From an uncultured Sulfurovum sp. (GTDB lineage Bacteria; Campylobacterota; Campylobacteria; Campylobacterales; Sulfurovaceae), in the NCBI GenBank assembly GCA_913055205.1, contig CAJXJN010000009.1:1-64000 (forward strand): a stretch of 64,000 bases of DNA, written 5' to 3'. Under the pieces are notes generated by a model. That model had not been told where the DNA came from. It was given only the letters and a program-made list of their open reading frames with translations, and searched no databases. Shown piece by piece: positions 3,593 through 44,419 of the stretch. The position numbers and the translations under genes are program-made. Each line of letters starts with the position of its first letter. Position 1 is the first letter of the stretch.

Positions 3593-4717
3593 TTATAACT
3601 TTAAAACGACTTTTTTGATCAGGATAGGTTTTGTTAAATTTTCATCTTCCAATTTTATGACTTTGGCACAATCACTTTTGGCCATTTGAACATACAAAGA
3701 GACCGTTACTCTGTCCCCTTTTTCAAAAGAAGGTATTTTATAGATCAACCTTTTTGTCTCTTTTGCATTAAGATTATGTACACTTCCCTCTGTTGCTGTA
3801 GCCGGAATAATAATATCTGTTTTATCCCGTTTGAAACTATAGGCAAAATATCCTTGTTTATCTTCAGCCGGATCTGTTTTATAATTTTGCCAAATCACCT
3901 TGTTTTTTCTATCTACTTCTATTTTTAAAAATTTTGCACGTGCCGGTTGTATAATAAGCGGATGTTCCATCTTATTGGTCAGCACGACTGTAAGTTTCTT
4001 CTTCTCAGCAGAGATATTGATATCTACTCCCGTTTTTCTAAATTCTTTGTCATGAATGCCCAGGAACTTATGACTGGCATGTTGTCCTCTGGCACGTTTA
4101 TCCATCTTCTCTGCACCACCCTCGATCTCCGGCATATGGCACTCGATACATCCTATACTGTCCTGTTTTTTATCCATCGCCCTAAAGATGGTTACATTAT
4201 TATCATTGAGTTTGTGAGAGTGGCATCCCATACAGACTTTTTTAGCATAAACAGGATTGGAAGCAGAAGAGTGTTTGTCACTGTCATCAGGATTATGGAG
4301 TCTGCCGTAAAGCGTAGGTTTATAATTTTCAGCTTGTCTTGCCTTCGTATTGATATTGAATTTATGTGCACTTTTCACATATGCAATGGTATGGCAGAAG
4401 TAGCAGGAGATAGCATCTGTATGGGTTTTATTGTTTTTATCAGGTCTTGCCTCACCGGAAATAAGATCTTTGAGATTATCTGCCATAGGCATATGACAGG
4501 TAGCACATGCATATTTGTTTTTATCAACTGTATCAGCAATTTTACGATGTAATTCATCATTAAAATAACCCTTGGCATGCTGTGAACTTTGAAATTCATC
4601 ATAGATCTTTTCATGACACTCTTTACAAGAATGGTTATCAAGATATTTTGCCTGTGAAAAAGAAAAAAGAGAGAGCAATACAAAGCAGAGTTTAAAAAAA
4701 ACAATTCGTTTCATCAA
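3593..4717 (-). CDS. periplasmic pentahaem c-type cytochrome
   Basis: A secreted multihaem cytochrome of the cytochrome c554/NrfA-like group. An N-terminal signal peptide ends near SFSQA (residue 23). Five CXXCH haem sites follow: CKECH (31), CATCH (71), CYFCH (105), CMGCH (162) and CIECH (190). The last 170 residues lack haem motifs and look like a beta-rich domain. It lies 84 bases downstream of nirS on the same strand, which suggests a role in electron transfer around nitrite/NO reduction or oxidation of a nitrogen or sulfur compound. No catalytic CXXCK haem is present, so it is not a classical NrfA nitrite reductase. Substrate is unknown. Confidence 0.75.
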   Translation of the reverse strand: MMKRIVFFKLCFVLLSLFSFSQAKYLDNHSCKECHEKIYDEFQSSQHAKGYFNDELHRKIADTVDKNKYACATCHMPMADNLKDLISGEARPDKNNKTHTDAISCYFCHTIAYVKSAHKFNINTKARQAENYKPTLYGRLHNPDDSDKHSSASNPVYAKKVCMGCHSHKLNDNNVTIFRAMDKKQDSIGCIECHMPEIEGGAEKMDKRARGQHASHKFLGIHDKEFRKTGVDINISAEKKKLTVVLTNKMEHPLIIQPARAKFLKIEVDRKNKVIWQNYKTDPAEDKQGYFAYSFKRDKTDIIIPATATEGSVHNLNAKETKRLIYKIPSFEKGDRVTVSLYVQMAKSDCAKVIKLEDENLTKPILIKKVVLKL

Positions 4718-4771
4718 ATAAAACCTTGGTAATTTATTGAAATGATCCAGTAATCATCTCAATAAATCACC

Positions 4772-4787
4772 CTCTCCGGAAGGAGAG
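4772..4787 (-). terminator. hairpin after nirS
   Basis: CTCTCC-TTCC-GGAGAG (minus-strand sense) forms a 6-bp stem with a 4-base loop 15 bases past the nirS stop codon. There is no T-run after it, so it may be a weak terminator, an attenuator before the pentahaem cytochrome gene, or an mRNA 3'-end stabiliser. Confidence 0.4.
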
Positions 4788-4801
4788 AGTAAAAGTATCA
4801 A

Positions 4802-6514
4802 TTAAGCACCAGGAATATGTTGTCTGTGCTCAACTGAGTATGTAAATGTTGGTGTTGTCAAGTTTTCAATATACTTGATGAACTCACCTGTTTTGGAGTT
4901 ATAGACACCGATTCTACCGGTAGTCCACTCAGAGATCATTGTCCATTTACCATGGTTCGCAGGCTCTGCATGTAGAAGTCTCGGTTGTACAGGGTCTTTC
5001 ACCGCTGCTCCAAGTTTAGCAGGCATAGGCAGGATCGTCTCTTTTCCAAATGCTTTTTCATTCACAGCCACTTTCTCATGCTGAGTTGCATCCCACTCTT
5101 GGAGTACTTTTTTAGTCTTAGCATCGATCAATTGACCTTTAGTTTTACCAACTTTAATGATTCTGTCAGTCTCTAAAGTATCTTTGTTAATCAAGTGAAC
5201 TTCATTATAGAATTCAGGTTTACCAAGAACACAATCAGACCAAATGTATGGTGTATGATGTGAAGTACCAACAAAGAGTCCACCACCAGCTGTATCTACA
5301 GTTTTAACCACTTTCCAGTTAGAGTCCCAAATAACAACTTTACCAACATTCATACTTTGTGTAGCGTGAAGTTGTTTTTTCTGACCTTTTGAGTACCAGC
5401 TTGATCCTTGACCCGGGTGTGGCTTGGTTTTCTTACCTGTATGTACTTTTGCAGCAAGGTTTTTCTCTTTAAAGTCAACGATACCGACAACATCAGACCC
5501 TTGAGAAGCGATCATAAAGTAACGACCAAAGTCTTCACCCTCATCTTCGTTCAAGAATGCATCGTGAAGAATTTTACCAATGTTCGGGATATCTCCAACG
5601 ATCGGGAAGTTTGGTTTAGAGTAATCAATAATATAAGTATGTCCACCATCTTTAAGTGCCATCGCGAAGTATGGTCCATAAGGTGTATCAGCTAGTGAAG
5701 CAACTCTTGATGGTCCGATTTGCCCGTCAGGATCAATAACACGGCTTGTATCAAATACTTTAAGCGGCTCAAGCGTCATAGCATCACAAAGTACTGCACC
5801 ACCCGGGTTATAGTTACCTGCAATTACATATTTACCATCCGGAGACACTGCAAGACCTCTGGACTCTTGTCCAACTTGCACTGATGCCAATGCCGGTTGT
5901 CCCGGAGCACCGATATCAAACATTGTCAATTTACCTGAACGAGAGATAGAGTAAGCATATCTAGGATTCTTTTTATTCGTTACAGTTACGTGTACCGCAA
6001 ATCCGGCTTTATGTCGTGAAAGTACTTTACCTGTCGTTGAGTCAATAAAGTCAACCAAAGAAGCATCTCTTTCTGTTGCGAATGTAATATCAAGTACAGA
6101 TTTTACCTCGGTTGGTTTTGGATACTTTTTAGCCAATGCTTCTCTGTCTGCAAGTTTTGTCCAAGTTTTTTTCACTTCATCAAGGTCAAGTGTTAATTCA
6201 ACAGTATTTTTCCAGTCCATCAACCAGTCAACCATACCCGTAGCATCATCTTTAGAAAAAGTGGTGTTCCATGCCGGCATTGCCGTATTTTCAACACCAT
6301 TAAGAATTCTTTCTGCTAAAAATTCTCTACTTTTTTTCTTCAGTGCTTTAGGTCTAAGATCCGATCCAACACCACCCTGGTGAATAGGTCCGTGACACCC
6401 TTGACACTCTTTTTCATACTTTTGGGCAAAATCCATATTTGACGTACCAGCCAAAGCCATTGTCGCTACAAAACTGGTAGCTGCTGCTAAACCTAAAAGT
6501 TTGTTCAATTTCAT
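4802..6514 (-). CDS. nirS: cytochrome cd1 nitrite reductase (NO-forming)
   Basis: This periplasmic enzyme reduces nitrite to nitric oxide, the committed step of denitrification. The 570 residues start with a signal peptide (cleavage near MALAG, residue 23), followed by a cytochrome c domain with CQGCH at residues 37-41. The d1-haem beta-propeller follows from about residue 130 to the end. The propeller contains the conserved histidine segments HPGQGSSWY and GTSHHTPYIWSD, which in known NirS hold the two active-site histidines. A strong ribosome site (AAGGAG) precedes the ATG. It is the last gene of the block that begins with norC. The d1-haem biosynthesis genes (nirJ, nirF and others) are not in this window. 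Confidence 0.97.
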   Translation of the reverse strand: MKLNKLLGLAAATSFVATMALAGTSNMDFAQKYEKECQGCHGPIHQGGVGSDLRPKALKKKSREFLAERILNGVENTAMPAWNTTFSKDDATGMVDWLMDWKNTVELTLDLDEVKKTWTKLADREALAKKYPKPTEVKSVLDITFATERDASLVDFIDSTTGKVLSRHKAGFAVHVTVTNKKNPRYAYSISRSGKLTMFDIGAPGQPALASVQVGQESRGLAVSPDGKYVIAGNYNPGGAVLCDAMTLEPLKVFDTSRVIDPDGQIGPSRVASLADTPYGPYFAMALKDGGHTYIIDYSKPNFPIVGDIPNIGKILHDAFLNEDEGEDFGRYFMIASQGSDVVGIVDFKEKNLAAKVHTGKKTKPHPGQGSSWYSKGQKKQLHATQSMNVGKVVIWDSNWKVVKTVDTAGGGLFVGTSHHTPYIWSDCVLGKPEFYNEVHLINKDTLETDRIIKVGKTKGQLIDAKTKKVLQEWDATQHEKVAVNEKAFGKETILPMPAKLGAAVKDPVQPRLLHAEPANHGKWTMISEWTTGRIGVYNSKTGEFIKYIENLTTPTFTYSVEHRQHIPGA

Positions 6515-9228: not shown

Positions 9229-9576
9229 TTATTTTTCTTGTATGGTTTCATCTATTTTTTCGTAACGATCATCCGCAGCACTTATCAGATAAAAATAGAG
9301 GTGAGGAATAAAAAGATACGCTATCATCGCAACCATCAGTACTTTCATCGTAAAGTGGTTACTTTGAATAAGAACAGCGAAATCATACAAGAAGTAAGTT
9401 TGCAATGCCCAAAACAGATATCCGACAGGCATCCATTTTTTAGAAAAGTACCCCATTTTAGAGAGGGTAATGATCGCTGCATACCCTACGCCAAAAACGA
9501 GTACAAGTGTTGACTCTATAAAGATAGGTAAGAATTGATCTAACGCAATCTCAGGACGAATTATCAACGGTTCCAT
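9229..9576 (-). CDS. small membrane protein heading the nor-nir operon
   Basis: A 115-residue protein with about three hydrophobic helices (LPIFIESTLVLVFGVGYAAI, MPVGYLFWALQTYFLYDFAVL, VLMVAMIAYLFIPHLYFYLI). The start at 9576 (MEPLIIRPE) is chosen over a longer reading because TAGGAG lies just before it. It is first in the transcription unit leading to norC, norB, the 48-codon ORF and nirS, and has an FNR-type promoter directly upstream. No family was recognised; a role in NO reductase assembly or function is inference from position only. Confidence 0.75.
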   Translation of the reverse strand: MEPLIIRPEIALDQFLPIFIESTLVLVFGVGYAAIITLSKMGYFSKKWMPVGYLFWALQTYFLYDFAVLIQSNHFTMKVLMVAMIAYLFIPHLYFYLISAADDRYEKIDETIQEK

Positions 9577-9966
9577 TATGTCTCCTATTGGATATCTATT
9601 TACTAAAGGGATCAAAACCCTAGAGCATACGAGTATTATGACAGTTTAGAAAAGTAATGGGATTGACATATATCAAGAAAATAGATAAAAATCATAAATT
9701 TTGATAATTTGATTAAGTAAAAATTATAGTGTTATTTTAGAAGAAAAAGTTATACTTTGGAAAAAGTCAAAAGTGCCAAATCTTGACATAGAAAAAATGA
9801 ACTGGCAATAACCATTGTGTTCATGGGCTTCTTGAAAAATCATTGCCGAATCTATAGCTGCGACTCAAATGTATCAAAAACCTCCTAAACACAAGCGTTG
9901 TTACTATTTTAAAATTTTCTATTATCTGGATTTGGAAAGATACCCTGGCTTGACCAGAGGTGTTCT
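9577..9966. other. 390-base intergenic region with regulatory box and a possible tiny ORF
   Basis: The right part holds no gene with clear support. The left part holds the FNR-type promoter (9635-9676). A plus-strand frame open from about 9840 contains an ATG at 9869 and runs to TAA at 10009 (46 codons). It gives an aromatic, basic peptide (MYQKPPKHKRCYYFKIFYY...) with no recognisable ribosome site, overlapping the 3' end of the minus-strand gene at 9967-10332. It could be a decayed remnant of a larger gene or chance. Confidence 0.4.
9635..9676 (-). promoter_or_regulatory. FNR/DNR-type class II promoter of the first nor-nir operon
   Basis: The box at 9663-9676 reads TTGAC-ATAT-ATCAA, one base off the FNR/DNR consensus TTGAT-N4-ATCAA. 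On the minus strand a CATAAT hexamer lies at 9640-9635, separated from the box by 22 bases. This places the box centre at -41.5 relative to a start near 9628, the class II activator position. The operon's first ATG is at 9576. Confidence 0.72.
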
Positions 9967-33658: not shown

Positions 33659-34891
33659 TTACCCGGGTAATCCGTCAGCACGAGGACTCAATAACCATTT
33701 AAAATAAATAGCAATATAGATAACAAAAGGTACACTCCAGACCAAAGCTGAACTCATATACAATGTGCTTGCAGCTTCAGGGTAGAATGCCACGGATGTT
33801 CTAAGTGCTGTTGCTACCAAGATAAGAAAAATACTTAAACAGATCCAGTTATTTCTCTCTTTGGCGATATCTCTTCCTGTATGGACAATGGTGACTACAA
33901 TCATAACAAGATAAAAAGAGAGTGTCCATGCTCCACTGGTGAGTACATGTAGGAAATCTCCATTATTGTAGTGCATACCGGTGAGATAATTGTATCCTAT
34001 CAGTCCATAGCCTATGGCAATAAGTACGGGTACAGTTATTAACGCACGAATAAGTCTTTTGCCCAAAATATTCTCTTCATCATAGGCGATAAAGTCATTG
34101 AATATCGCCAGACTTGCACTTGCCGTACCCAAAGCGATCCACCCCAACACCCTGTTGCCGGGGTAGAAGAATTCTACGGTGGCAAAAAGTGCGATCATGA
34201 ACATGGTTAGATTATACGCAGGTGGCCTGGCAAAGAAGATCTCTTCATTTTTTTCTTCCAGTTCTATGATTTCATTGACCGCTTCAATATTCACACGACG
34301 GATAGCCAACAAGATAAGCACCAAAAAAACCGCCAGGGAAATTTTGAGTATCTCCAAAGCAGGCGTCTGTACAAATCCAAGTACAGAAAGGTAGAACCAT
34401 ATCTGTGCCACTTGAACCGCTACAAAACCATACGCTACGCTCACATGCCTTTTGGCAGGGTCTTTGAAGATAGGCTTGGCTACCAGCGCAGTCAGCCATG
34501 CAAAAAGGAATATATTGATAACAGTAGAGGGGTAAGGCGTAATAATATCCATGAGCCAAAAGCTTACTCTGCCTGCTATCCACAATCCAAAGAGATTGCG
34601 TAACGTTTTACCCACTACCGGGATGGTTCCCGGATAAAGTTCCGGAGCCCCGGTAAAGATAAATGCCGCCATACCCAAAAAGCCTACACCAAACAGCATT
34701 TCATAAATATGCCAACTGAGTGTATCACCAATAAACGGCAAAGTAATGTAACCACTGTAGTAGAGTCCCCACAATACAATAGAGAGTATCATATAGGGAG
34801 CCATCAGTAAAAAAGCCGGACGAAAGCCATAAGCCAGATAAATTGGAACATCACCCTCAGGGTAGGATTCGTAGTGTTTTGTCGCTGCCAT
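33659..34891 (-). CDS. nnrS: NnrS family haem/copper-type membrane protein
   Basis: 410 residues, about 12 helices, beginning with a short cytoplasmic stretch and AYGFRPAFLLM, which is the NnrS opening motif, followed by SWHIYEMLFGVGFLGMAAFIFTGAPEL. NnrS proteins bind haem in the membrane and relieve nitric-oxide stress by an unclear mechanism; they are common beside nir/nor genes. It starts by a TAATG overlap after the ABC ATPase gene, so it belongs to the transporter operon. Confidence 0.93.
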   Translation of the reverse strand: MAATKHYESYPEGDVPIYLAYGFRPAFLLMAPYMILSIVLWGLYYSGYITLPFIGDTLSWHIYEMLFGVGFLGMAAFIFTGAPELYPGTIPVVGKTLRNLFGLWIAGRVSFWLMDIITPYPSTVINIFLFAWLTALVAKPIFKDPAKRHVSVAYGFVAVQVAQIWFYLSVLGFVQTPALEILKISLAVFLVLILLAIRRVNIEAVNEIIELEEKNEEIFFARPPAYNLTMFMIALFATVEFFYPGNRVLGWIALGTASASLAIFNDFIAYDEENILGKRLIRALITVPVLIAIGYGLIGYNYLTGMHYNNGDFLHVLTSGAWTLSFYLVMIVVTIVHTGRDIAKERNNWICLSIFLILVATALRTSVAFYPEAASTLYMSSALVWSVPFVIYIAIYFKWLLSPRADGLPG

Positions 34892-36403: not shown

Positions 36404-37378
36404 TTAGTCCTTTATATAAAATGCTTCATCGGGTACTGATCCTCCGATGATCTTTGGGTTGTCTTCTTTAAGCACATTAAAGAAGAAATTGAGTTCTTCT
36501 TGAGAGTCTATGGCTCTTTTTACATCAAGTTGCACATGGTCTATGGAGTCGGTAATAGCATCCGCATTGAACATTTCAACATATTTTACTATCAATTCAC
36601 CAGACTCTTTTTTATGTGTTTTATACCACTGCATCGCTTTGGTATATGCTTCTTCAAAGGCTTTAACAATCTCTTTTTTCTCTATCATGTCACCAACCAC
36701 TGCCATACCTGCCTGTGGTATTTTTGCTTCTCTGTTATAGATATCTCCCCACTCATCTTGCAAATCTATCCCTCTAAAAACAGTCGGTGCAATGATGCTT
36801 ACAGGAAACGATTTGGTTTTTCTAAGTACCATGGAAGTTGCAGGTTCAGGCAGTAAAATATTGTCCGCTCTTCTCATAATGAGCTGTTGTGCCGCATCCA
36901 TAGGGTTGGAGACATAGATAAGCTTGATATCCTCTTTTCCCAATCCTTTTTTCTTCATCACGGCTCTAAGCACGATATCAGGCATATCACCACGCCAAGG
37001 CACAACAAGCTCTTGCCCTTTAAGATCTTCAATATGCTTGACTTTCTTATCTCTGACAAGTATTTTTAAAATACCCCACACAGAGACATTGAGCATTTTG
37101 ATCAGCTGTTTTTTGTTGTAGAGAATAGAAGCGACATTGGTAGGTACGGCTACGAAGTCCACCTCTTTGTTGATGATCATCGCCCGAAGCTGATCGGGAT
37201 TTTTCCACATTTTGAACTCAACCTTATCGGCATACTCTTTAAGTACACCATCCTCTATCATCTTAAAGACGGGGTGCGAAACATTGGCAGCAGGTCCTGC
37301 AATAATGATCTTTTCCAGCTTCTGTGATGCTATTGAGAGTGTCAAAAGCACAGAGAGTATGAGTAATATTTTTTTCAT
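36404..37378 (-). CDS. ABC transporter periplasmic binding protein (SsuA/THI5-like)
   Basis: 324 residues with a signal peptide (MKKILLILSVLLTLSIASQ). The mature part is a two-lobed type II binding fold of the NMT1/SsuA kind: IIIAGPAANVSHPVFKMI, VDFVAVPTNVASILYNKK, DLKGQELVVPWRGDMPD, LLPEPATSMVLRK. First gene of the four-gene operon ending in nnrS. The ligand could be an anion, organosulfur compound or cofactor precursor; only position links it to NO metabolism. Confidence 0.88.
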   Translation of the reverse strand: MKKILLILSVLLTLSIASQKLEKIIIAGPAANVSHPVFKMIEDGVLKEYADKVEFKMWKNPDQLRAMIINKEVDFVAVPTNVASILYNKKQLIKMLNVSVWGILKILVRDKKVKHIEDLKGQELVVPWRGDMPDIVLRAVMKKKGLGKEDIKLIYVSNPMDAAQQLIMRRADNILLPEPATSMVLRKTKSFPVSIIAPTVFRGIDLQDEWGDIYNREAKIPQAGMAVVGDMIEKKEIVKAFEEAYTKAMQWYKTHKKESGELIVKYVEMFNADAITDSIDHVQLDVKRAIDSQEELNFFFNVLKEDNPKIIGGSVPDEAFYIKD

Positions 37379-37400: not shown

Positions 37401-37441
37401 ATTATACGATTTTGATATTAATTATCATTGATTTATATCAA
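37401..37441 (-). promoter_or_regulatory. FNR-type promoter of the ABC-nnrS operon
   Basis: Box TTGAT-TTAT-ATCAA at 37428-37441 matches FNR at all ten bases. On the minus strand a perfect TATAAT lies at 37406-37401, 21 bases from the box, giving a near class II arrangement before the gene starting at 37378. The divergent outer-membrane gene at 37551 may also use this box, since the DNA on that side is A/T-rich. Confidence 0.75.
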
Positions 37442-37550: not shown

Positions 37551-38507
37551 ATGAAAAAAATAACAACGATACTCTCTCTGGGAGTCATACTGGGAATAAC
37601 ACAACTTAGTGCAGATGTAATGCCGGGGATTAACTCAAAAGGTGGAGGGATGCTGCTTCCGGAGGGCAAGATGAAGATAGTCTACAAATATATCAATTTT
37701 GACCGAAACAGTATGTTTGACGGTTCAAATGAAGTGCCAAACAAGGAGCAGTTGGATGCTACGGCAAATATAAATTTACTTGTATTGAATTATGGGGTAA
37801 CGAATGATTTCAATATTGCACTGGCAGTGCCGCATAAAAGTATTGAAGCCACAGCAAAACTTGGGGAAAACAATGTGGCTATTGAGAACAGCGGAATAGG
37901 TGATATTCTCTTAATGGGAAGATATAAACTCACTGATCTTAAACAGGATGGTTATCAGACTGCGTTAAAGATTGGGGTAAAACTGCCTACCGGTTCAACA
38001 GATGAGGGGTTTAAAAAAGCACCGCCATTTGCTCTTAATGTCAATACACCCCTGCCAACGCAGATGGGAACAGGTGCAGCAGAATACAAACTGGGGATCG
38101 GGATTTCAAAACTCTTCGGGAATGCCAGACTGGATGCGAATGCTATGTTTACCTACAGACCGGAAGCAGAACATGATTATGACTTTGGAAATGAGTTTTC
38201 CTATAATATAGGCTATATCCATGCCCTAAGCAAAAAGTTTAATATCGGACTTGAATATAACGGTAAGTACAATTCCAAAACAGATATGGGAGATGATACC
38301 AACCCGATGTTGCGTCAAATGCTACCATTCAAAGCATTCAGCGGTACGGTCGGCTACCTAACTCCACAGGTTCAATTCTTGCCGTTTGGAAAACCTAAAA
38401 TACATTTGGATCTCGGTGTTTCTCTCTTGCTTCATGAGAATGTAAAAGAGTATCAGCCATTGGAAAAGAAACGGTTTATTGTTCGGTTTGGGTATTTGTT
38501 TAAATGA
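37551..38507 (+). CDS. outer-membrane beta-barrel protein (phenol-degradation MetA-like family)
   Basis: 318 residues with a signal peptide ending near LSA. Alternating hydrophobic strands and a C-terminal phenylalanine region (RFIVRFGYLFK) are typical of a barrel. Segments such as LLPEGKMKIVYKYINFDR and GVKLPTGSTDEGF resemble the Phenol_MetA_deg family. It diverges from the ABC-nnrS operon across the FNR-type box and may be the outer-membrane route for the same substrate; that is inference. Confidence 0.7.
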   Translation: MKKITTILSLGVILGITQLSADVMPGINSKGGGMLLPEGKMKIVYKYINFDRNSMFDGSNEVPNKEQLDATANINLLVLNYGVTNDFNIALAVPHKSIEATAKLGENNVAIENSGIGDILLMGRYKLTDLKQDGYQTALKIGVKLPTGSTDEGFKKAPPFALNVNTPLPTQMGTGAAEYKLGIGISKLFGNARLDANAMFTYRPEAEHDYDFGNEFSYNIGYIHALSKKFNIGLEYNGKYNSKTDMGDDTNPMLRQMLPFKAFSGTVGYLTPQVQFLPFGKPKIHLDLGVSLLLHENVKEYQPLEKKRFIVRFGYLFK

Positions 38508-38543: not shown

Positions 38544-38957
38544 CTATATTTTACACCCTCTTCCGGCAATATCCTCCAAACTTGATTCCCGAAACATTTT
38601 TTGCAGTAAAAGTTTTGGTTCCATCCATTGATCATGCAAGGCACATTTACACAGGCCATTGCAAAATCCTATACCCAAAACACACTGCTCGTCTTTAATA
38701 GAATCGTTAAAGATATCCAAAATATCACTCACCATGATTTCAGAGGTTTTCTTTTCAAATTTATATCCACCTTCTCTTCCCCGTATGGATACTACTAAAC
38801 CAACTTTCACAAGTTCCGTCATGATTTTAGTCAAAAATTTATAGGGTATATATAATGCTTCAGCCAGTTCTGTAGCATTCATGAGTTTAGAATCTTTTTG
38901 ATCTGCCATATAAGCTAAGATTCTTATAGCATATTTGGAACTGTTACTCAATTGCAT
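38544..38957 (-). CDS. Rrf2-family transcriptional regulator
   Basis: 137 residues. The winged helix opens MQLSNSSKYAIRILAYMA and continues LAEALYIPYKFLTKIMTELVKVGLV, the Rrf2 recognition region. The C-terminal part holds the cluster-binding cysteines: CVLGIGFCNGLCKCALHDQW (four Cys), fitting an NsrR/IscR-type Fe-S sensor. It diverges from the second nor operon, whose promoter has two matching palindromes. NO-sensing is therefore the most likely role, although this is inferred from context. Confidence 0.88.
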   Translation of the reverse strand: MQLSNSSKYAIRILAYMADQKDSKLMNATELAEALYIPYKFLTKIMTELVKVGLVVSIRGREGGYKFEKKTSEIMVSDILDIFNDSIKDEQCVLGIGFCNGLCKCALHDQWMEPKLLLQKMFRESSLEDIAGRGCKI

Positions 38958-39013
38958 ATGACTCCTTTAAATTATCATTTATACATCATATTATACAAAA
39001 AAAAATATAATTA

Positions 39014-39072
39014 CTACTTAAAGGTAGAATTAATCTTATCTTGCTAATATTCCAATTACTACTCAATGGTAG
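39014..39072. promoter_or_regulatory. pair of CTAC-N6-GTAG palindromes (likely Rrf2 operators)
   Basis: CTACTTAAAGGTAG (39014-39027) and CTACTCAATGGTAG (39059-39072) lie 45 bp apart. Both are embedded in ATTACTACT-NAA-NGGTAGAATT. The second lies 21 bases before the norC start codon, where a bound repressor would block transcription. The adjacent regulator gene is Rrf2 family. Confidence 0.75.
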
Positions 39073-39093
39073 AATTTTAAAAGAGGATAATCC

Positions 39094-39540
39094 ATGACTG
39101 AACGTATAACGAAAAGTATGGCAAAAAACATCTATTATGGTGGCGGTACATTCGCACTTATGATATTTATTGCCCTTACTTTTGATACTGTACATCAAAT
39201 TCCAAAACGATCAAATCAGCAGAATATGACAGAGAGTGTTGTAGCTGGGAAAAAACTTTGGGAGAAAAACGACTGTGTCGGTTGTCATACTATTGTGGGA
39301 GAAGGCGCATATTATGCACCGGAACTCATGAATGTATTTCAAAGAAGAGGAGCTTCAGATGAAGCAACATTTAAAGCTTATATGCAAGGGTGGATGGCTG
39401 CACAACCGCTTAGTGCACCAAATAGAAGAAAGATGCCACAGTTTCATTTAACTCCGGCAGAAGTCGATCATTTATCAGACTTTTTAATTTGGACATCAAA
39501 AGTAAATGCCAATGACTGGCCACCAACAATTGAAGGGTAG
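39094..39540 (+). CDS. norC: nitric oxide reductase cytochrome c subunit, second copy
   Basis: 148 residues, the usual NorC size: N-terminal helix (about 14-32), haem site CVGCH near residue 62, GEGAYYAPELMNVF and KMPQFHLTPAEVDHLSDFL with the axial methionine. First gene of norC-norB-norD-norQ-norE-norF-like. Shorter and distinct from the copy at 8428. Confidence 0.96.
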   Translation: MTERITKSMAKNIYYGGGTFALMIFIALTFDTVHQIPKRSNQQNMTESVVAGKKLWEKNDCVGCHTIVGEGAYYAPELMNVFQRRGASDEATFKAYMQGWMAAQPLSAPNRRKMPQFHLTPAEVDHLSDFLIWTSKVNANDWPPTIEG

Positions 39541-40926
<1,386 letters not shown>

Positions 40927-40942: not shown

Positions 40943-42745
40943 ATGCTTCACTATTGGCTTGAGTTTGAAGAAAGTATCGGTAAGGTTTGGGACAACTACC
41001 TGAACAGGAAAGTACATAAATTTCATGAAGAGCAAAAAGTCTATTTTGAAGATATCAGTAAGTCATTAAATATTTTTCATCGCCTTATGGGTGGTGAAAA
41101 AGCAAAAGAGCTACAAATTACAGACAAAAGATATGTCGAGACTTCCAGAACTCTCCTGCAAAAAATATCATTTTTGGGAAAAGAGTTTTTTTTAACATGG
41201 CAAGATGAAGAGTCTGTTTATCTGCCTGCATCTTTTGCCTATTTTTCTACAAAAGAAGAGAATGAGATGCTCTACTACTGGCTTGTGGCTATGGCAACAC
41301 AAGTAGAGAATGTTACGAACCATAATCTCATAGAACAAAATCTAAAGGCTATGCACTACCTCACAAAACGCTACAGTGGATTCGATATTTTTTACAAGCA
41401 ATCGAGCCAGTATCTTATGGATAAATATGAGCAATTGTCATTTCTTAAATCTTTAGATGAGCAATCAAATCAAGATTTAACAAATGATTATCCCAATCCC
41501 CTCTGGATATATCCGCCAGCCATTACGCTAAATTATGCAAATAATATTGAAGATGAAGAACAGGAAGAGCCAATAAGAGAAGAGGGTAAAGACAAATCTG
41601 AAGAGCTGCATATGAAAAAGCAGACGAATCAGATAGATGACAAGCATGAAACAGACGGTTTTTTGGCTTTTTTACCGGAATCTTTGATGAGTATTTTTGA
41701 ACAGGTCAATGTGGACAGATGCGAAGATGACAGTTTTGATGAAGACGCACTCTATCATGCTGAAGATCTAGATGAGATAACCATAGGACAAAAGCAGGCA
41801 AATTTATCGGCACGAATTAAAATGGATTTGGAGTTATTACCCGATACAACCGTTCTATATCCTCTAGGCAAAGGGCATTTCATAGATGAATGGGATTATT
41901 TAAAATCTGAATACTTGGTAAAATATGTACGTATTTTACCTCAGGTAACTACAAATGTAATACCTACAGAACTGCCCGTAAGACTGAAAAAAACGGTACG
42001 GAAAATTCAAGGAGAATTAGATCTTTTGCAGCTCGATCGCATAAAAAATGACAATCTCCCTTATGGTGATGAGATCAATATTGACAGTTGGATAGAATAT
42101 TTCGGGCATCAAAACAAATCGATGCATCATCAAAAATTTTATACAACTTTTGAAAAAAAGACACGAGACATGTCCACATTGATTTTGGCAGATATTTCTC
42201 TCTCTACGGAGGGTGGTATCACACAGGAAGTACGGATCATTGATGTTATCAAAGATTCTTTGATGGTTTTTAGTGAAGCTCTTGAAAAACTCCAGGATAA
42301 ATTTGCCATTTATACTTTCTCGTCACTGCAAAACAAAAAGGTTTATTTTAATATCATCAAAAATTTCAAAGATAAATATGATGCGTTGATTCGCGGAAGA
42401 ATAGACACCATTAAACCGCAATACTATACACGAATGGGTGCAGCCATAAGAGAATCTGCCAAAATCTTAGACAAACAACAAAGTGCCAATAAATTGCTTT
42501 TAATCATAAGTGACGGTAAGCCAAATGATGAAGATAGGTATGATGGGAGATACGGCATAGAAGATACAAAAAAAGCGCTTGAAGAAGTGAAACAAAAAGG
42601 CATCACTCCTTTTTGTATTACCGTTGATCTGGACGCAAAAGAGTATTTGGGATACTTATTTGGAAGAAACGGCTATGCCGTTGTACGGGATGGTCAGAAG
42701 TTACCAAAAGTACTTACCGAAGTCTATATAAACTTAACAAAATAA
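40943..42745 (+). CDS. norD: NorD-like von Willebrand A domain protein
   Basis: 600 residues. The C-terminal third is a VWA domain with the MIDAS motif DISLST (near residue 415) and LLIISDGKPNDEDRYDG. The long N-terminal region is helical, with an acidic middle (DEEQEEPIREEGKDKSEEL). With the AAA+ protein NorQ it forms a VWA-MoxR pair needed to mature NorCB. Directly follows norB. Confidence 0.92.
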   Translation: MLHYWLEFEESIGKVWDNYLNRKVHKFHEEQKVYFEDISKSLNIFHRLMGGEKAKELQITDKRYVETSRTLLQKISFLGKEFFLTWQDEESVYLPASFAYFSTKEENEMLYYWLVAMATQVENVTNHNLIEQNLKAMHYLTKRYSGFDIFYKQSSQYLMDKYEQLSFLKSLDEQSNQDLTNDYPNPLWIYPPAITLNYANNIEDEEQEEPIREEGKDKSEELHMKKQTNQIDDKHETDGFLAFLPESLMSIFEQVNVDRCEDDSFDEDALYHAEDLDEITIGQKQANLSARIKMDLELLPDTTVLYPLGKGHFIDEWDYLKSEYLVKYVRILPQVTTNVIPTELPVRLKKTVRKIQGELDLLQLDRIKNDNLPYGDEINIDSWIEYFGHQNKSMHHQKFYTTFEKKTRDMSTLILADISLSTEGGITQEVRIIDVIKDSLMVFSEALEKLQDKFAIYTFSSLQNKKVYFNIIKNFKDKYDALIRGRIDTIKPQYYTRMGAAIRESAKILDKQQSANKLLLIISDGKPNDEDRYDGRYGIEDTKKALEEVKQKGITPFCITVDLDAKEYLGYLFGRNGYAVVRDGQKLPKVLTEVYINLTK

Positions 42746-42756
42746 AAAGGAAAAAA

Positions 42757-43548
42757 ATGTCAAAAACATATTATCTGCCTCAATCCAATGAAGTGGAACT
42801 TTTTAAAGCCGCAGCACAGATGAACCTGCCTGTTTTAATCAAGGGTCCAACTGGATGCGGTAAAACCAGATTTATTGAATCTATGGGTGAAGAACTTGGA
42901 CGTGATGTGTATACAGTTGTTTGTCATGATGATCTAAGTGCAGCCGATCTGGTTGGCCGCCATCTTATAGATGAAAATGGTACCTATTGGCAGGATGGTC
43001 CTTTAACCAAAGCTGTAAGAAATGGCGGTATATGTTACATCGATGAAATCATTGAAGCCAGAAAAGATACGACTGTTGTGCTTCACTCTCTAGCAGATTA
43101 CCGTAGAGTGCTGCCGATAGACAGAACAGGTGAAACGATAGAAGCGCATCCTGACTTTATGCTTGTGGTTTCTTACAATCCCGGGTATCAAAATGTACTC
43201 AAAGGGATGAAGCCGAGTACCAAACAGCGTTTTATTTCACTCAGTTTTAATTATCCCAAAGCAGAGATAGAAAAAGAAGTGCTTATGAAAGAGAGTGGTA
43301 TTGATGAAGCAACAGCGCAAAAACTTGTAGATATAGCCGGAGAGATCAGACAATTGAGTGATACCGACATTCAGGAAGCTGTCTCTACAAGACTTCTTAT
43401 TTATGCGGGAAAATTAATGACAAAAGGTTTTGATCCATATCAAGCCTGTATGCACTCTATAGTAGAATCACTCAGTGATGAAGAAGATGTCCTCGAAGTG
43501 CTTGAAAAACTGATAGCTTTACATTTTGTAAAGAGTTCCCATGTCTAA
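42757..43548 (+). CDS. norQ: NorQ-like MoxR AAA+ ATPase
   Basis: 263 residues. Walker A GPTGCGKTRF (near residue 30), Walker B GICYIDEI (the MoxR form), sensor 1 SYNPGYQNV and arginine region STKQRFISLSF. Thought to insert the non-haem iron into NorB with NorD. Start has AAAGGA upstream. Overlaps norE by 8 bases. Confidence 0.94.
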   Translation: MSKTYYLPQSNEVELFKAAAQMNLPVLIKGPTGCGKTRFIESMGEELGRDVYTVVCHDDLSAADLVGRHLIDENGTYWQDGPLTKAVRNGGICYIDEIIEARKDTTVVLHSLADYRRVLPIDRTGETIEAHPDFMLVVSYNPGYQNVLKGMKPSTKQRFISLSFNYPKAEIEKEVLMKESGIDEATAQKLVDIAGEIRQLSDTDIQEAVSTRLLIYAGKLMTKGFDPYQACMHSIVESLSDEEDVLEVLEKLIALHFVKSSHV

Positions 43549-44140
43549 AAGTATCACTGTAAAAGAGAAATACCCTCCTGGAGATTTTGCAATTTGGATT
43601 ATTATTTATGTTGAGTTAGTAACATTTGCACTACTTTTTTTAGGTTATGCGTTTTCAAGAAGGTCACATATTGAGATGTTCAATGACTCACAACTTCTGT
43701 TAAACCAGACATCAGGTTTCATAAATACACTTATTTTAATCACAAGTAGTTATTTTGTCGTAAAAGCCGTTAAAAGTGTTACAAGTATGACGAAGGAAAG
43801 CATAAAAGAGTCTAACCTTAGGGCATCAAAATGGCTTTTATATGCCATCATGTGCGGCATTGCTTTTTTAGTGATTAAACTGTCAGAATTTATTCATATA
43901 TTTGGACAAGGCATTACACTTAGTACGAACAAATTCTTTATGTTCTATCTGCTTTTGACGGTATTTCACTTTATGCATGTGCTTTTAGGTTCAATTATTT
44001 TATTTAATATCTATAAAAAGACAAAAATTCATGGGTATATGCCGGATGATTATAAAGGTTTTGAAACGGGTGCATCCTATTGGCATATGGTAGATCTGTT
44101 GTGGATTGTTCTTTTCCCACTCGTTTACATCATAAGATAG
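43541..44140 (+). CDS. norE: NorE-like cytochrome c oxidase subunit III family protein
   Basis: 199 residues with five helices. The pattern GDFAIWIIIYVELVTFALLF, FLVIKLSEF, FHFMHVLLGSIILF and YWHMVDLLWIVLFPLVYI is the COX3/NorE type. Known to support full NO reductase activity in denitrifiers. Starts 8 bases before norQ ends. Confidence 0.92.
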   Translation: MSKSITVKEKYPPGDFAIWIIIYVELVTFALLFLGYAFSRRSHIEMFNDSQLLLNQTSGFINTLILITSSYFVVKAVKSVTSMTKESIKESNLRASKWLLYAIMCGIAFLVIKLSEFIHIFGQGITLSTNKFFMFYLLLTVFHFMHVLLGSIILFNIYKKTKIHGYMPDDYKGFETGASYWHMVDLLWIVLFPLVYIIR

Positions 44141-44152
44141 GAGGTGAAAAAT

Positions 44153-44419
44153 ATGAAAAGAACGCTTGAATATGTATGGATAATTTTAGTCATACTCACA
44201 ATTTTTGCTTATTTACTGGGGTATTTAAAGTTGATAAGTACTTCTCTTGTTGGTATCTTACTCATAAGTACATTTATAAAAGGGCAGCTGGTGATTGACT
44301 ATTTTATGGGTTTGAAAACAGTTCAACTGAAATACAGACTGATACCGACTATCTGGCTGGGTATTGTTATATCACTCATTGCAGTAGCATATTATCTACC
44401 GGTTGCAGCTACACACTAA
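44153..44419 (+). CDS. norF: NorF-like small membrane protein (prokaryotic COX4 type)
   Basis: 88 residues with three helices (VWIILVILTIFAYLLGYL, TSLVGILLISTFIKGQLVIDYFMGL, LIPTIWLGIVISLIAVAYYL). The STFIKGQLVIDYFMGL stretch matches cytochrome-oxidase subunit IV-like NorF proteins. ATG 44153 follows AGGAGG at eight bases; a GTG at 44144 overlaps that site and is unlikely. Last gene of the operon. Confidence 0.85.
   Translation: MKRTLEYVWIILVILTIFAYLLGYLKLISTSLVGILLISTFIKGQLVIDYFMGLKTVQLKYRLIPTIWLGIVISLIAVAYYLPVAATH

Follow-up and report, generated by a model that had tools for sequence, protein, structure and literature searches.

Twin CTAC-N6-GTAG repeats beside an rrf2-family gene as candidate operators of nitric oxide reductase genes in Campylobacterota

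IscR, one of the Rrf2-family regulators, binds its Fe-S cluster through three cysteines and one histidine. For NsrR of Streptomyces coelicolor, Asp8 has been described as a ligand of the cluster and the DNA site as extending over 23 bp (PMC9338935, in part). A comparison of nitrogen-oxide regulons places NsrR in several groups, among them the bacilli and the beta- and gamma-proteobacteria, and NssR in Campylobacter (PMC1274295, in part), and a review from 2019 on the control of respiration in Campylobacterota names the Nss regulators and, in the part of its text that was available, makes no mention of Rrf2 or NsrR (PMC6682613); the NO regulators already known in the phylum are Crp-Fnr (Nss) proteins. 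A gNOR type of NO reductase (NOR) has also been named (PMC8906906, in part). No paper on the control of NOR by an Rrf2 protein in Campylobacterota was found in the literature searched, whose coverage stops short of subscription journals, and the control of NOR in the free-living members of the phylum, which are key denitrifiers of vents and redoxclines, is apparently undescribed there.

The locus considered here lies in a stretch of 64,000 nucleotides (the window) from an uncultured Sulfurovum sp., in which an rrf2-family regulator gene of 137 aa (38544..38957, minus strand) and a norC-like cytochrome c gene (39094..39540, plus strand; PF00034) diverge from a 136-bp intergene containing two 23-bp direct repeats. 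CTAC-N6-GTAG palindromes are present at 39014-39027 and 39059-39072, with the Rrf2 gene on one side and the norC-like gene on the other, as the original prediction had described, and its claim that the two are nearly identical in their extended context holds as well, since 21 of the 23 bases agree between AATTACTACTTAAAGGTAGAATT (candidate operator 1, 39009..39031, plus strand; matrix score 36.3) and AATTACTACTCAATGGTAGAATT (candidate operator 2, 39054..39076, plus strand; matrix score 33.2), which are separated by a 45-bp step and are both conserved before norC in relatives. The norC-like gene is the first of an operon that continues on the plus strand with a norB-like heme-copper oxidoreductase subunit (39550..40926; PF00115), a VWA protein (40943..42745; PF00092) whose norD-like role is assigned from gene order, a norQ/cbbQ-type AAA ATPase (42757..43548; PF07728, PF08406), and cox3-like (norE) and cox4-like small membrane proteins (43541..44419; PF00510, PF03626), at which it probably ends. 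The reading that we favor, and consider probable, is that the twin sites are the operators of the divergently encoded Fe-S Rrf2 repressor, which would be distinct from NsrR and released by NO.

Within the 136-bp intergene, an equally good 23-mer repeat was obtained in 0 of 1000 dinucleotide shuffles, and at least one CTAC-N6-GTAG core in 0 of 5000. In the whole window, the bare core is weakly above chance, with two occurrences against a shuffle mean of 0.49 and two or more in 11 of 100 shuffles, and across the 1.66-Mb draft genome it is not enriched, being found at 20 places as compared to 30 for the reversed control; the bare core was rejected as the defining motif for this reason. With up to three mismatches allowed, the extended pattern retrieves from the whole genome the twin sites and one further match, which is located inside an ORF. 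It is the extended twin, not the bare core, that is the special feature of the source genome (86% complete), where none of the other NO genes carries a site by the same pattern.

The comparison with relatives started from 19 Rrf2 loci of the genome collection, in assemblies named Sulfurovum, Sulfurimonas or only by higher Campylobacterota ranks. The set of norC upstream regions (n = 32) was drawn from the window, from 13 further genomes and from 18 of the Rrf2 loci, the nineteenth, L010, ending before norC; G388 and G365 are omitted as copies of L015 and L016. With a site called at up to three mismatches to 15 fixed bases, all 32 regions contain at least one site and 28 at least two, the site-to-site spacing (n = 30) being 45 bp in 23 cases, 46 bp in four, 44 bp in two and 47 bp in one. 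Of the four single-site promoters, L011 and G252 retain the downstream site, and G285 and G316 retain the upstream one, with a degenerate remnant at the place of the downstream site. In the intergene of L016 and L017, a third operator copy is found one 45-bp step further upstream, making three tandem sites.

Between the two sites, and 2-5 nt before the downstream one, the -10-like sequence GNTANNAT is present in 31 of the 32 norC promoters, as compared to 218 of 6400 shuffled segments, and TANNAT occupies the same inter-site position in all 32. This conserved element, GCTAATAT in the window (39043..39050, plus strand), is predicted to be the extended -10 of norC, with transcription starting at approximately 39057; the call is based on conservation across relatives, and a consensus scan of the norC side gave no sigma-70 promoter with a -35. 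With the -10 positioned between the sites, operator 1 would coincide with the -35 region and operator 2 with the transcription start, and this layout makes it more likely that the 45-bp step, which corresponds to 4.3 helical turns, is set by the promoter rather than by dimers bound on one face of the helix. On the minus strand, a TATAAT at 38990..38995 is the predicted -10 of rrf2, the -35 region of which would fall in operator 1.

The Rrf2 protein belongs to the family by its scores (TIGR00738, 111 bits against a cutoff of 73.3; PF02082, 92.2 against 30) and falls below the cutoffs of the equivalog models for NsrR (NF008240, 51.5 against 182 bits), IscR (TIGR02010, 68.4 against 207.55 bits) and, likewise, RirA. 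It had been credited with four cysteines; four do lie in one loop, but the total is five (C92, C99, C103, C105 and C135), and among 17 diverse relatives only C92, C99 and C105 are invariant, together with H108 and W111, with C103 and C135 varying. The spacing C-X6-C-X5-C-X2-H formed by C92, C99, C105 and H108 recurs in 41 of the 43 matches in the phylum, with C-X7-C in the other two, and the three cysteines, probably along with H108, may serve as the ligands of a putative Fe-S cluster. Position 8 is a lysine (K8) in the window protein and K, Q or E in all 17 relatives, none of which has Asp8. The AlphaFold2 model (mean pLDDT 75.3), in which the cluster loop is unmodelled (residues 95-112, pLDDT below 50), matches the structures of CymR, RsrR, IscR and NsrR, the best Foldseek hits being 2y75 and 6y45.

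Eight weaker paralogues, which score below 110 bits, have the same cysteine loop and a recognition helix of the LPFHFMAKSLQKL rather than the IPYKFLTKIMTELVK type, and a site is found in none of them (0 of 8). Since these proteins share the loop and yet have another helix and no site, it is the recognition helix, and not the loop, that goes with the site. The loop of these paralogues (L136-L141, L146 and L147) keeps the C-X6-C-X5-C-X2-H spacing, and several of them are encoded beside ABC transporter genes.

In a phylum sample of 397 Campylobacterota genomes, the Rrf2 protein, counted as present at a match with E up to 1e-25, is found in 38 genomes and norC of the window type in 16, all of which are among the 38 (hypergeometric P 1.7e-18, uncorrected for kinship); twin matches of the one-mismatch pattern occur in nine genomes, and all nine have Rrf2. 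The quinol NO reductase (qNOR) was chosen to separate the effect of the regulator from that of the target, with a matrix built from the norC sites alone and a score of at least 10 within 350 bp upstream counted as a site. Matches to qNOR are present in 44 of the 397 genomes, 11 of the near and 33 of the distant type, and a site precedes qNOR in all nine of the genomes that have Rrf2 and in none of the 35 that lack it; 2 of 880 shuffles reach the score. The 35 include two near-type qNORs, in G065 and G067, and near-identical qNOR genes with and without the regulator and the site make a clean natural contrast. The Fisher value of the qNOR test (1.4e-9) takes no account of kinship, and all but one of the 33 distant qNORs come from a single genus; as the rows are related by descent, the P values overstate. 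What the genomes show directly is the sites, how they are conserved and spaced, and that they depend on the presence of Rrf2; they track the Rrf2 gene across the phylum and not any one NOR gene. The suggestion that the palindromes form an Rrf2 operator, perhaps an NO operator of Campylobacterota, gains comparative support from this contrast, and binding of the twin sites by the Rrf2 protein is strongly inferred.

The 35 Rrf2 matches of at least 120 bits include 27 with a site within 1.5 kb and four further genomes (G307, G308, G281 and G124) in which a site is found at a NOR promoter elsewhere; in G266, G010, G218 and G016 no site was found near the gene. Two of the scores are weak and close to the shuffled maximum of 12.1, namely that of G124 at qNOR (11.5) and that of G338 beside rrf2 (10.0). 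On a tree of 43 Rrf2 rows, the deep forks of which are weakly supported, the site label requires 5 changes, as compared to a mean of 10.7 for shuffled labels.

The size of the regulon was estimated with the strict pattern WTACTAC-N6-GTAGWAWT, searched without mismatch in the 38 whole Rrf2-bearing genomes, which gave 40 rows in 21 genomes, equal to 32 places, and two rows for the reversed control. All but one of the 32 places are no more than 6 kb from the Rrf2 gene (31 of 32), the exception, G195:C21, being inside an ORF. The genes beside the sites in relatives are norCBDQ, qNOR (744 aa; PF22085 and PF00115), a gNOR-like oxidoreductase and hemerythrin, together with globin at a weaker site, so that the expectation of a motif near NO-linked genes is borne out in relatives, but in the source genome it extends to the rrf2-norC intergene only. 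The gNOR-like type, carried by G272, G146 and G229 (L068, L069 and L085), has a 551-aa heme-copper oxidoreductase and a 195-aa cupredoxin-like partner beside Rrf2, with one site. The 551-aa enzyme is probably a gNOR-type NO reductase, an assignment based on the CuA copper ligands that its cupredoxin-like partner seems to lack.

Hemerythrin and cupin genes are found in L064 (G326, 3884-5048) between two separate twin-site promoters, one of which faces norC and the other of which is shared with rrf2. In L143 (G176, 9267-9754), a globin gene and one for an HPP membrane protein are divergent from Rrf2, with the weaker site (score 17.7) just upstream; HPP genes adjoin weak sites also in L144 and L127. 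NnrS is divergent from norC in G176, and in L062 the two genes point away from each other on either side of the twin sites; the NnrS gene of the window (33659-34891), 4 kb from Rrf2, is without a site. In G330 (L055) and G304 (L124), twin sites precede rrf2 and, approximately 0.8 kb further on, a gene for a protein of 106-112 aa, which belongs to no Pfam family and is secreted-looking in L055; both genomes have Rrf2 and the sites, yet neither has a norC or qNOR match.

It has to be noted that the one-mismatch pattern TTACTACTNNNNNGTAGNATT, which has matches in 83 of the 397 genomes, was rejected as a sufficient marker on account of MarR-type and intragenic matches. Among 40 regions picked by eye from 38 of those 83 genomes, 17 have Rrf2 with sites, four have norC with sites and no adjacent Rrf2, nine belong to a MarR-type palindrome class (with the Pfam check made on one), and ten are inside genes or near no related gene; the match in L077, one of these ten, is intergenic. 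The look-alike of the MarR-type class is a perfect palindrome, ACTACTAATTAGTAGT, situated just upstream of genes of 146-155 aa with no Rrf2 nearby (L057-L060, L079, L080, L088, L091 and L092; in L059 also before the next gene), and the gene behind it in L057, the locus run through Pfam, belongs to the MarR family. The occurrence of so similar a palindrome before MarR genes means that the one-mismatch pattern is not specific.

In the mechanism that we propose, an Rrf2 dimer with an Fe-S cluster held by C92, C99, C105 and probably H108 would occupy both 23-bp sites; on operator 1 it would cover the -35 regions of both norC and its own gene, and on operator 2 the norC transcription start. With the norC -10 flanked by both operators, RNA polymerase would be excluded from norCBDQ, and rrf2 would be kept low. 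NO would then attack the cluster, causing Rrf2 to leave the DNA and allowing the NO reductase to be made, and in relatives the same type of regulator would control whichever NOR exists (norCB, qNOR or gNOR-like), sometimes together with globin or hemerythrin. We infer in this the position of the promoter, the repression, the Fe-S cluster and NO as the signal.

The repeats could also be Rrf2 operators that answer to a different signal, such as Fe-S status, oxygen or redox in the manner of IscR or RsrR, with the NOR operon as one output. The C-X6-C-X5-C-X2-H loop comes close to the ligand spacing of IscR, and of the two equivalog models, for both of which the protein is under cutoff, the one for IscR gives the higher score (68.4 bits, with 51.5 for NsrR). 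The NsrR ligand Asp8 (PMC9338935, in part), moreover, is replaced by K, Q or E in every one of the 17 relatives. This explanation is nevertheless unlikely, given that the targets comprise NO-consuming enzymes of several unrelated kinds along with globin and hemerythrin, and that no Fe-S assembly gene was found among the neighbours run through Pfam or NCBIfam. A change in the sign of control is less probable again: because no -35 was found near the predicted norC -10, Rrf2 might act as an activator through operator 1, upstream of a promoter lacking a -35, for which the consensus scan of norC speaks, but operator 2 would then sit on the predicted transcription start, and the promoters of L011 and G252 retain the downstream site only, those of G285 and G316 retaining the upstream site and the degenerate downstream remnant.

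That a different regulator, of the Crp/Fnr/Nss or MarR type, binds the repeats and Rrf2 is a mere neighbour is very improbable; the very similar perfect palindrome before MarR-type genes elsewhere in the phylum is consistent with it, whereas the sites track Rrf2 across genomes and NOR types, G330 and G304 have them before rrf2 itself without norC or qNOR, and an exact NssR or FNR box is absent from the rrf2-norC intergene. Hardly credible, finally, is the notion that no protein recognizes the repeats and that they act as RNA elements or are simply repeats of the promoter, for although CTAC/GTAG pairing could give the norC leader a short stem, folding of the leader is no better than that of shuffles (z 0.59), operator 1 lies upstream of the predicted transcription start, and the absence of Rrf2 is accompanied by the absence of the site in the qNOR test. 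An RNA element in the norC leader is unsupported by the same z of 0.59.

In its widest form, for and against which we see about equal reason, this proposal would amount to an NO switch that extends across Campylobacterota and evolved independently of NsrR. An Rrf2 lineage with an IscR-like ligand set and a CTAC-N6-GTAG operator of its own would accompany, almost obligately, whichever NOR is present (cNOR, qNOR or gNOR-like), with the promoter enclosed by a pair of operators and almost no targets in the rest of the genome. Since the operator is defined and the regulon very small, NO responses could be predicted directly from genome sequences. Such a second lineage of Rrf2 proteins would also offer a way to ask how a cluster loop without the Asp8 of NsrR could sense NO.

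From NssR and the other Nss regulators of Campylobacter and Wolinella, which respond to NO in the same phylum (PMC6682613 and PMC1274295, both in part), the system described here differs in protein family and in motif, these being Crp-Fnr proteins with, in the case of NssR, TTAAC-N4-GTTAA sites. At the norC promoter, the only match to that motif has two mismatches (39077-39090) and lies over the ribosome binding site, and two-mismatch matches in the window number 44, as compared to 55 expected. An exact FNR-type box, TTGATTTATATCAA, is present at 37428-37441, between a divergent ABC substrate-binding gene (36404-37378) and an outer-membrane-type gene (37551-38507).

With RsrR and CymR, the structures of the best Foldseek hits (6y45 and 2y75), the window protein shares the Rrf2 fold, but these regulators have other signals and operators and approximately 20% identity to it. 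Its likeness to IscR lies in the three cysteines and one histidine at nearly the same spacing and in close fold matches (4chu and 4hf1); it differs from IscR in scoring below the IscR cutoff, in having T43 in place of E43 (from an alignment judged by eye), and in being associated with NOR genes and not with Fe-S assembly.

The likeness to NsrR consists in the Rrf2 winged helix, in a small NO-detoxification regulon and in the length of the site, which is 23 bp in S. coelicolor as well (PMC9338935, in part). The window protein departs from NsrR in falling under the equivalog cutoff and in lacking Asp8, and its candidate operator departs from the usual NsrR site, as had been foreseen, with CTAC-N6-GTAG twins placed around a -10 and no match to AAGATGYATTT, at up to one mismatch, in 38544-39093. 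In the whole window, AAGATGYATTT at up to one mismatch is found 16 times against 6.6 expected, a number reached in 0 of 100 shuffles, with none of the matches at the rrf2-norC intergene. An Rrf2 lineage with an operator associated with NOR genes would in sum be a variant on the Fe-S repressors of the Rrf2 family that are known to control NO detoxification, and would have a putative role in the sensing of NO.
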